Assembly: GCA_015065795.1 (NCBI GenBank)
Contig: SVPO01000008.1
Location: forward strand, 1-36,248
Reading direction: 5' to 3'
Origin: Oscillospiraceae bacterium
GTDB taxonomy: Bacteria; Bacillota; Clostridia; Oscillospirales; Acutalibacteraceae
DNA: 36,248 bases
Program-made: the position numbers and the translations under genes
Shown: positions 27,313 to 29,563 of the stretch, one piece after another
Layout of the letters: every line of letters starts with the position of its first letter
Numbering within the stretch: the stretch's first letter is position 1
The notes under the pieces: model-generated
Told to the model about the DNA's origin: nothing
Databases searched by the model: none
The model's input: the letters and a program-made list of their open reading frames with translations, nothing else

Positions 27313-27762
27313 TTATTCGCTCAGCAGCAGAGCCAGCGCAGGCTCGTACTTCTTTCTGTAATACTCAAGCTTTTCTTCAGATGGCAGCAGGTCATCGCTT
27401 CCGGCAAACCGGCTCTGATCCATGTTGTGACGCAGGTCGGCAAGCTTGACCGCCTTTGCGATGGGATTTTCCTTGATTGCCGCGACATAATCAAGATAGG
27501 GAACGCCCTCCCCGTGGGTGAGCAGTCCGATGGCTTCCAGAACCTCCTCGGGGAATCCTTCGGCGCGCAGGTCGTCAATGGTGACGTAGGTGTCCTCCAC
27601 AACGTCGTGCAGCAGCGCGGCGATGGTGGTGTACTCGTCGGTCATCTGCTCGGCAAGGTGCACAGGATGCAGGATGTAGGGGATACCGGAAGTATCCAGA
27701 GCTCCCTGATGCGCGCGGTAGGCGATTCGGATGGCTTTGTTGGTCAGTGCGGTGTAAATCAT
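27313..27762 (-). CDS. HD-domain phosphohydrolase (SpoT/MESH1-like)
   Basis: AYRAHQGALDTSGIPYILHPVHLAEQM...IAALLHDVVEDT...KLADLRHNM. Confidence 0.9.
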   Translation of the reverse strand: MIYTALTNKAIRIAYRAHQGALDTSGIPYILHPVHLAEQMTDEYTTIAALLHDVVEDTYVTIDDLRAEGFPEEVLEAIGLLTHGEGVPYLDYVAAIKENPIAKAVKLADLRHNMDQSRFAGSDDLLPSEEKLEYYRKKYEPALALLLSE

Positions 27763-27826
27763 ATATCATCCCTCCTTGTACTGATTATACATCCCTTCGG
27801 CGATATCATCAATCCATGTAATACAC

Positions 27827-27859
27827 AAAAAGCCTGCCGACGCAGATGCGCCGACAGGC
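27827..27859 (-). terminator. Intrinsic terminator, minus-strand
   Basis: Minus RNA GCCUGUCGGCGC-AUCU-GCGUCGGCAGGC + UUUUUG; 12 bp with two G-U pairs that become A-C mismatches on the plus strand. Confidence 0.8.
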
Positions 27860-27907
27860 AGTTTTTCGGTTGTTAACGCTTATGCCTGGCATACAGCGTT
27901 TGTGATT

Positions 27908-28084
27908 ATCTCATTGGACTCACCTTTACATCAGGATTTACGGTCAATGACCGTTGTCCGCTCACTTGCAGGGCAAGTGGGAGTTGTTATCTCATTGGAC
28001 TCACCTTTATCAAAGATTTTCGGCTCTGAGCCGTTGTCCGTTCACTCACTGATGAGTGGGAGAAATCATTTCATTGGACTCACC
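27908..28084 (-). repeat. Tandem structured modules bounded by 17-nt box GGTGAGTCCAATGAGAT (three copies, ~80-nt period)
   Basis: Boxes at 27908-27924, 27989-28005, 28068-28084; intervening two-hairpin modules with compensatory changes; fourth diverged copy at 28488-28504. Confidence 0.85.
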
Positions 28085-28777
28085 TTTTCAATTTTTTCTA
28101 TGGGAAATATTCAATTGAAATTGTCAGTCACTGTATCTCGTGTGCCTCAGTTTCCGCGGATGATCTTCGGGTGTGTGCGTACCCAATATCTGCGGTTCTG
28201 ATACCGGCGGTCATGCGGCTTTTACGGATGCTGTACCCGTGCTCCGCAGCCTTCCGATATTCTCAGTTCCGCACATCTACGCGCATCACCGGTCGGATGT
28301 TCATCCGTTCCGCTTGAATCCGAAGCATCTCATAACAACAACAGTTGAGTGTGGCGTCTGCTGCCGAACCGGTAGTCCGCACTGTTGCGCGGGCGTCGGC
28401 GCTTTTCAGCCTCAAAATTGGATGATCGTCAATTCAAGATCATTGCGGTGCGGAAACTGAGACCCTTGAAATGTGACTCCTCTGCATATCTCATTGGCCT
28501 CACCCCGTTTTCTTTTTGTATTCACCGTGGATCCGGTATGTGCCGGTCGTTCGGTCTGCTGTTAATCTCCGCTGTAAGCGGTAAACAGTGTTTGCGGAAA
28601 AACCGCGTACATTTGATCCGTTGCCTGGAATAATATAAATCGAAAGAAGAAATATATATCCTCACAGACCGTTCTTCCGAACCCGAACCTGCGGTGGCTG
28701 CAAATTCTTTCCGCCTTCGTTCCGGCATCTTTTCTGCCGGAGGGAAAGGATTTGTGACATCTCCTTGTGTCACCTAT

Positions 28778-28806
28778 ATAATAGCAGATGATGTGTGAAT
28801 TGTCAA
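28778..28806 (-). promoter_or_regulatory. Sigma70-type promoter of the ncRNA locus
   Basis: Minus strand TTGACA (28806-28801), N17, TATTAT (28783-28778). Confidence 0.75.
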
Positions 28807-28912: not shown

Positions 28913-29239
28913 ATGACGTATAACGGAGGTAATGATATAATGGCTGATAAGGAATACAGTGCCGATATAATCACCCTGATCGACGATGACAACGTGCAGC
29001 ACGAGTTCGAGCTGCTGGATGCCATCGAGACCGACGACGGACGCTATGTTGCCCTGCTGCCCTATCTGGGCGACGATGCCGAGGGCGCGGCTGACGGCAG
29101 CGAGTATTACATCCTGCAGGTCGTTGAGGTCGAGGGCGGCGAAGAAGAGCTGACCGAGATCGAGGACGAAGAAATGCTGGATACCCTTGCGGAGATCTTT
29201 GAGACCCGCTTCTCCGAAATCTACGGCGAAGAAGACTGA
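28913..29239 (+). CDS. DUF1292 family protein (YrzB-like); start may be MADKEYS at about 28940
   Basis: DIITLIDDDNVQHEFELLDAIETDDGRYVALLPYL...YYILQVVEVEGGEEELTEIEDEEMLDTLAEIFETRF; GGAGG RBS before MADKEYS. Confidence 0.9.
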   Translation: MTYNGGNDIMADKEYSADIITLIDDDNVQHEFELLDAIETDDGRYVALLPYLGDDAEGAADGSEYYILQVVEVEGGEEELTEIEDEEMLDTLAEIFETRFSEIYGEED

Positions 29240-29290: not shown

Positions 29291-29563
29291 GACGGACGCT
29301 TGTCCGTGAACATCTGCTTTACCCCTGCCCAGTGCGTGGACTGTGCTTATATAACCCTACAATTAATTAAACGGGAGTTGGTCTCCGGCGACGGATTGCA
29401 GACCTCCCGGCACAGTCCTGAGCTGTGTTGGACGAAGGGAGCGCGAAAGCGTTGGGCTGACACCCACCTGCTATCGAGTAGCAGGTTATTTTAAGCGCAA
29501 TACGGCTGGGCGGGATCATACTAAAACCGAAGCACCCCGGAGAGATTCGGGGTGCTTTTTGTA
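29291..29563 (+). ncRNA. Structured noncoding RNA, probable 6S (SsrS)-like RNA; core about 29324-29514
   Basis: TGATATAAT extended -10 at 29276-29284; closing stem CCTGCCCAG (29324-29332)/CTGGGCGGG (29506-29514); GGACTGTGC (29338-29346)/GCACAGTCC (29410-29418); ACCTGCTA/TAGCAGGT hairpin (29466-29486) after GACACCC; terminator 29531-29560. Confidence 0.6.
29531..29560 (+). terminator. Intrinsic terminator of ncRNA
   Basis: AGCACCCCG / CGGGGTGCT + TTTTT. Confidence 0.9.

Follow-up and report, generated by a model that had tools for sequence, protein, structure and literature searches.

Tandem extended Shine-Dalgarno boxes and start-stop micro-ORFs on a probable standalone structured RNA beside the 6S RNA gene in Clostridia

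Introduction

6S RNA is an RNA polymerase decoy and provides a precedent for an RNA that occupies a central machine of the cell. OLE, ROOL, GOLLD and raiA are large bacterial RNAs, structured and standalone, and we know of no boxes combining a Shine-Dalgarno (SD) site with a micro-ORF in any of them. In the protein-titrating RNAs CsrB and RsmZ, a short element is repeated between hairpins. The stabilizing SD (STAB-SD) of cry3A binds the 3′ end of 16S rRNA, initiates no translation and blocks RNase J1 (PMC4113751); this and other STAB-SDs are SD-like, need not lead to translation, and are single sites in an mRNA 5′ UTR. The bar minigene of phage lambda consists of an SD, an AUG, one codon and a stop, and, according to papers listed in PMC8012679, bar and further minigenes act as translation inhibitors in E. 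coli. In S. aureus, extended SD pairing with the 16S tail close to the start determines which start is used and can direct initiation at non-AUG codons (PMC13009471).

We analyzed a 36,248-nt stretch of DNA from an Oscillospiraceae bacterium (assembly GCA_015065795.1, contig SVPO01000008.1), referred to as the window. Computation revealed a standalone locus with boxes complementary to 16S rRNA, in-frame stops, variable micro-ORF codons, RNA structure and recurrence across the order. Compared with a STAB-SD, the sites on the window RNA recur, carry start codons and in-frame stops, and lie on a standalone transcript. Lambda bar is one specific minigene, whereas here arrays with variable codons occurred on a structured RNA across the order, and the S. 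aureus sites start real genes, whereas these ORFs end after one or two codons and one base of the pairing is bulged. The RNA had no Rfam match to OLE, ROOL, GOLLD or raiA, and it differs from 6S RNA, its neighbor, in sequence and strand, being predicted to pair with the 16S tail rather than with RNA polymerase. On balance we favor a standalone structured RNA, probably acting by engagement of ribosomes at extended SD boxes, with stops after one or two codons.

Results and Discussion

Locus and transcript

A transcript of about 945 nt (27825 to 28771, minus strand; ends approximate) was inferred from a promoter and a terminator. The sigma-70-type promoter (28778 to 28806, minus strand), TTGACA-17-TATTAT with TG before the −10 element, reached 11 of 12 matches in a consensus scan, and TTGACA/TATAAT-type promoters occupied the equivalent position in many relatives. 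The intrinsic terminator (27832 to 27859, minus strand) has a stem of 12 pairs, nine of them G-C, followed by TTTTTGTGT, and terminators end the RNA in relatives as well. The 711-nt region from 28545 to 27835 was predicted to fold clearly more stably than its shuffles (z −4.4). Divergent from the RNA are a DUF1292 gene (28913 to 29239, plus strand; Pfam PF06949, E 3.6e-15) and the 6S RNA gene used as synteny anchor (29319 to 29520, plus strand; Rfam RF00013, 59.7 bits). The same divergent arrangement was seen in relatives, 6S adjacency being usual in the window's family.

Boxes were first found by pattern in congeners, where DUF1292 and 6S RNA flanked the locus in every case, and 60 loci were then retrieved by 6S position alone. 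In relatives, a sigma-70 promoter precedes a first box that carries an ORF; between none and about five start-stop boxes come next, each micro-ORF box often trailed by a hairpin, and a terminator closes the unit; one locus (L018) had six boxes. Scoring the 17 nt that precede the start triplet with a matrix gave 72 sense and no antisense sites at a score of at least 10 in loci found mostly by 6S synteny. This strict matrix detected a box in 22 of the 60 synteny loci, some first boxes being more diverged and detected only under looser rules.

Directly after the terminator, at 27313 to 27762 (minus strand), lies a gene for a 149-aa HD_4/RelA-SpoT-like protein, a neighborhood that was not conserved, the downstream genes in two congeners being unrelated to it. 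A leader or tandem riboswitch of this HD_4 gene was rejected because a strong terminator intervenes and downstream genes differ in relatives. A type III toxin-antitoxin RNA (ToxI), which would have tandem repeats directly 5′ of a ToxN-type toxin gene, was also rejected, as the downstream gene is HD_4/SpoT-like, PADLOC gave no match, and the downstream genes of two congeners are unrelated. Covariance models of Rfam 15, judged by their gathering thresholds, gave no match over the window RNA or the RNAs of relatives, its matches being limited to neighboring 6S, SAM, T-box and tRNAs, and no description of such an RNA was found in a literature search lying largely outside subscription journals.

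Ribosome-binding boxes

The sequence-only reading of the window had placed three copies of a 17-nt box on the minus strand, at 27924-27908, 28005-27989 and 28084-28068, spaced 81 and 79 nt apart. All three were confirmed, and a fourth, overlooked in that reading, was found at 28504-28488 on the same strand. The latter is the first box, the variant GGTGAGGCCAATGAGAT with one change, at a conserved position; it is followed by GGTGAGTCCAATGAAAT at 28068 to 28084 and by two copies of GGTGAGTCCAATGAGAT at 27989 to 28005 and 27908 to 27924, all identified by sequence and pattern match. Four matches to GGTGAGTCCAATGARAT (up to three mismatches) occurred in the window vs 0.20 expected, and none of 100 shuffles gave four. 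A longer box pattern (up to two mismatches), searched in the whole assembly, which is about 80% complete, was confined to this locus.

As RNA, the box reads AAAGGTGAG-TCCA-ATG-ARA-TRA, that is, an SD and a spacer before a start codon, which a single Lys or Arg codon separates from a stop. Its GGTGA-G-TCC part is complementary to the 16S rRNA 3′ tail (GGAUCACCUCCUUU) over 9 bp with one bulge: AGGTGA forms 6 bp, one base is bulged, and TCC adds 3 bp. The tail was taken from relatives, whose 16S rRNA ends in GGCTGGATCACCTCCTTTCT, rRNA not having been found in the window assembly. The predicted duplex was −15.7 kcal/mol for the first box, −14.3 for the second and −12.9 for each of the last two, a complementarity to the 16S 3′ end of the kind by which STAB-SDs are recognized. 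The median over 88 boxes was −14.4 kcal/mol, vs −9.8 for the best starts of 47 long ORFs in the window and −4.4 for random positions. From these energies, the otherwise puzzling conserved spacer is predicted to belong to an extended anti-SD helix. The bulge is itself conserved (GGTGA-N-TCC instead of GGTGATCC), which maximal 16S pairing does not explain. A GUG start at −9 within the box was rejected, as many boxes are without GTG and the SD spacing would be wrong. The earlier suggestion that the box belongs to a ligand- or protein-binding unit was unsupported, the box being a strong extended ribosome-binding site with a start and a stop.

Conservation of the spacer TCC beyond a minimal SD would also be expected of a CsrB-like sponge for an RNA-binding protein or small RNA recognizing GGTGAGTCCAAUG, with the micro-ORFs incidental. 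The box is locus-specific in the window genome, its modules are repeated as in protein-titrating RNAs, and an HD-domain mRNA in genus g215/g46 (family f13) carries a similar box. We nevertheless consider a sponge improbable. HD genes in the window's family were without the box, in-frame stops are not predicted by such a sponge, and the repeated GGA in hairpin loops typical of CsrA/RsmA titration, as in CsrB and RsmZ, was absent from the window RNA (loops TCAG, CCT, CAG and ATT), whose repeated element is a translation start region. A search of the assembly for an antisense partner of the box found none; no long complementary partner occurred elsewhere in it, with one other site at up to one mismatch.

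Micro-ORFs and in-frame stops

In the window, the first box opens a 21-codon ORF, MRYAEESHFKGLSFRTAMILN and stop (28429 to 28494, minus strand), with equivalents in relatives, where first-box ORFs had 10 to 31 codons and often began M-x-[S/C/T]-E. The other boxes open, on the same strand, ATG AAA TGA (MK and stop, 28066 to 28074) and two copies of ATG AGA TAA (MR and stop, 27987 to 27995 and 27906 to 27914), which were assigned from sequence and frame statistics. Of 61 non-redundant start-codon boxes, 42 had an in-frame stop within two codons, whereas the two alternative frames gave 7 and 11 (p = 4e-13), and 13 of 19 AAG/AAA boxes had such a stop, compared with 6/38 for the other frames. Because some loci had been retrieved with a pattern containing ATGARATAA, the count was repeated on loci found by 6S synteny only: in-frame stops were present in 15 of 26 start-codon boxes vs 4 and 6 (p = 0.0016) and in 10 of 16 AAG/AAA boxes vs 3 and 1 (p = 6e-4). 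The distance from start to in-frame stop was bimodal in start-codon boxes, at 0 to 2 codons in 42 and 15 to 32 codons in 16.

The start triplet was ATG in 59 of the 88 non-redundant boxes, AAG in 13, AAA in six and GTG in two, and boxes with AAG, AAA, CCT, CCG or GCA at this position retained the strong upstream part, suggesting that selection may not act on initiation as such. This retention of the SD part in non-start boxes is what a STAB-SD-like stabilizer would show, in which 30S subunits on the boxes would chiefly shut out 5′-3′ RNase J and so prolong the life of a structured regulatory RNA, stops would prevent wasteful translation, and function would reside in other structured parts. Members with a single 5′-end box and a long structured body, and the cry3A precedent introduced above, speak for this possibility, which we hold to be unlikely but the strongest of the competing accounts. 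Internal and 3′-proximal boxes would shield downstream fragments only, and AAG boxes keep an in-frame stop that pure 30S parking would not need. Under the preferred reading of ribosome engagement, start-less boxes that keep the SD part and AAG boxes that keep the stop frame may be sites where docking is weak or silent. Loci L052 and L059 carry AAG/AAA box arrays in which a short CGGTA.GACCG-type hairpin comes after every box; the start codon has apparently been lost there, while the box and, for the most part, the in-frame stop have been kept.

The micro-ORFs held 26 different codon contents plus one direct start-stop, used all three stop codons, and included AAA, AGA, TAC, AAC, CAA, GCA, TTC-ACG and TAC-AAG between start and stop, indicating that they are not one inherited string. 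A micro-ORF of the form [ATG/AAG]-TAC-AAG-[TAA/TAG] recurred in two families, f1 and f19 (L018, L072, L078 and L194). The lambda bar layout of SD, AUG, one or two codons and stop was present three times in the window and in the 42 boxes counted above, and the commonest forms were ATG-AGA-TAA and ATG-AAA-TAA. Such start-stop minigenes could inhibit growth or translation under stress, with dipeptidyl-tRNA drop-off sequestering tRNA; the minigenes inhibitory in E. coli in papers listed in PMC8012679 lend this some plausibility. Since the micro-ORF codon was not conserved across relatives, no particular tRNA appears to be targeted, and we give the idea little credence.

A conserved peptide as the selected product was rejected as well, the first-box ORF of genus g215 having a pN/pS of 0.78, which indicates little peptide constraint. 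From this low constraint and the free choice of micro-ORF codon, ribosome engagement, and not the peptide, seems to be what is selected.

Repeat modules and RNA structure

Two hairpins per module, in the same order and with pairing kept, had been proposed, and the comparison bore this out. Hairpin 1 is CACTCA-TCAG-TGAGTG in module A (28043 to 28058) and CACTTGC-CCT-GCAAGTG in module B (27963 to 27979); hairpin 2 is CGGCT-CAG-AGCCG in module A (28021 to 28033) and ACGGTC-ATT-GACCGT in module B (27940 to 27954), all on the minus strand. Read pair by pair (hairpin 1 arms CACTCA/TGAGTG vs CACTTGC/GCAAGTG, hairpin 2 arms CGGCT/AGCCG vs CGGTC/GACCG), the eight stem differences formed four compensatory double changes, and no pair was broken. 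A further predicted hairpin, AACGCT...AGCGTT (27875 to 27900, minus strand), lies 3′ of the last micro-ORF. The linker CGGACAACGG was indeed invariant between modules (28040-28031 in A, 27960-27951 in B, minus strand). Both modules were predicted to fold alike, with a GUCC-GGAC closing helix, hairpin 1 and hairpin 2, at unexceptional energies (z −0.57 and −1.68).

Pairing of the linker's GGAC with GUCC of the box, also proposed earlier, thus stood for both window modules, but it was not general: among relatives, GGAC lay within 100 nt of the box in 12 of 88 boxes, about the chance level. The proposal that the repeats are kept for RNA structure, beyond recent duplication, was supported. A hairpin 3′ of the micro-ORF recurred in relatives with different sequences. 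There, sequence downstream of the micro-ORF was more structured than sequence upstream (mean z −1.13 vs −0.29, p = 0.0007). Each of three sampled congeners had one micro-ORF box, the triple tandem modules being particular to the window species, which suggests that the triple array arose in the window lineage.

The pairing options of the box raise the question of a translation-controlled switch in each module, in which a ribosome on the micro-ORF would alternate with pairing of the box to the GGAC linker or to hairpin 1, the module thereby sensing the status of ribosomes or of initiation; this is the earlier ligand idea in another form. The box can pair with GGAC and, over 7 bp, with the 5′ arm of hairpin 1 in both window modules, and by inspection the first box of g215 can pair over 9 bp with GGACTCGCC inside its own ORF. 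Across 88 boxes, the best box-to-downstream pairing was 6.3 bp vs 6.1 expected; with no enrichment, a general box-antibox hairpin was rejected, and we regard the switch as quite doubtful.

Distribution in other families

Similarly organized RNAs occurred in at least three other families, f13, f15 and f19. In f13, the box opens MVSEIEQQFRTARLAGAH and stop (genus g174) or MV[TS]EE...FAGLAA.L and stop (g215) at the 5′ end of a promoter-to-terminator RNA; in f19, AAGAAAGGGTGAGTCCA-ATG-TAC-AAG-TAA lies just downstream of a promoter; and in f15, the box opens MVQSESSQIGGLRPAI and stop. What these RNAs have in common with the window RNA is the box, the 5′ ORF and a layout running from promoter to terminator. 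The g215 RNA had a covariation-aware folding energy of −353, compared with −235 for column shuffles (z −16), and 58 of 183 pairs were compensated. This large, strongly covarying RNA (L141-L161), whose 5′ end bears a box and an ORF of 17 codons and which is without an Rfam match, spans about 350 nt on the 5′ side and 700 nt on the 3′ side of CCGATGGGCATACTGATGAGTATGG, a motif nearly invariant in g215 RNAs and common to g174 RNAs.

Among 85,488 species genomes scanned for exact matches, 17 stretches were found, 16 of them in Clostridia-type genomes; the exact pattern had no match in viral contigs, and a phage origin was rejected. At other places in the order, some box-like sites stand in front of ordinary leader ORFs or genes, and in families f19 and f23 (L195-L197) they open leader ORFs of 6 to 24 codons upstream of other genes. 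In f13, HD-domain (HDIG) mRNAs (L138, L139 and L152; L127 and L128) start with the box and the first codons (MGSEIEQ...) of the g174 short ORF. An HD-mRNA mimic was rejected, given the box-free HD genes of the window's family and the absence of a homologue from the window genome.

Proposed mechanism and significance

In the mechanism that we propose, each box, as an extended SD, would engage nearly all of the 16S 3′ tail by pairing and would set an AUG, sometimes an AAG, at a productive distance. Ribosomes are inferred from these sequence features to bind the boxes and, at ATG boxes, to initiate and stop within one or two codons; at the first box, the stop would come after about 10 to 31 codons. 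30S subunits or ribosomes may thus be repeatedly captured and released along the RNA, with no conserved peptide made.

The purpose of such engagement is the most speculative part of our account, the candidates being a ribosome decoy or sponge, a stable RNA protected by ribosomes, and translation-coupled folding. At this most speculative level, we give similar weight to a reservoir or decoy of ribosomes or 30S subunits beside 6S RNA and to bound ribosomes that protect a long-lived RNA. Array size varied, and some members had a single box, so a sponge made of many boxes cannot account for every member. It is a tentative idea, less probable than engagement itself, that an order-wide class of structured RNAs, located beside 6S RNA in one family, holds ribosomes or 30S subunits on tandem extended-SD start-stop micro-ORFs as a translational counterpart of 6S RNA.

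In the modest version, in which ribosomes serve as RNA stabilizers, these RNAs would offer a clean natural system for tests of ribosome parking, of initiation at AAG and of extended SD pairing. If the fuller account is true, two-codon ORFs repeated on a standalone RNA would make the act of translation, and not its product, the function, and a ribosome decoy beside the polymerase decoy 6S RNA would be a new control of protein synthesis in abundant gut Clostridia.
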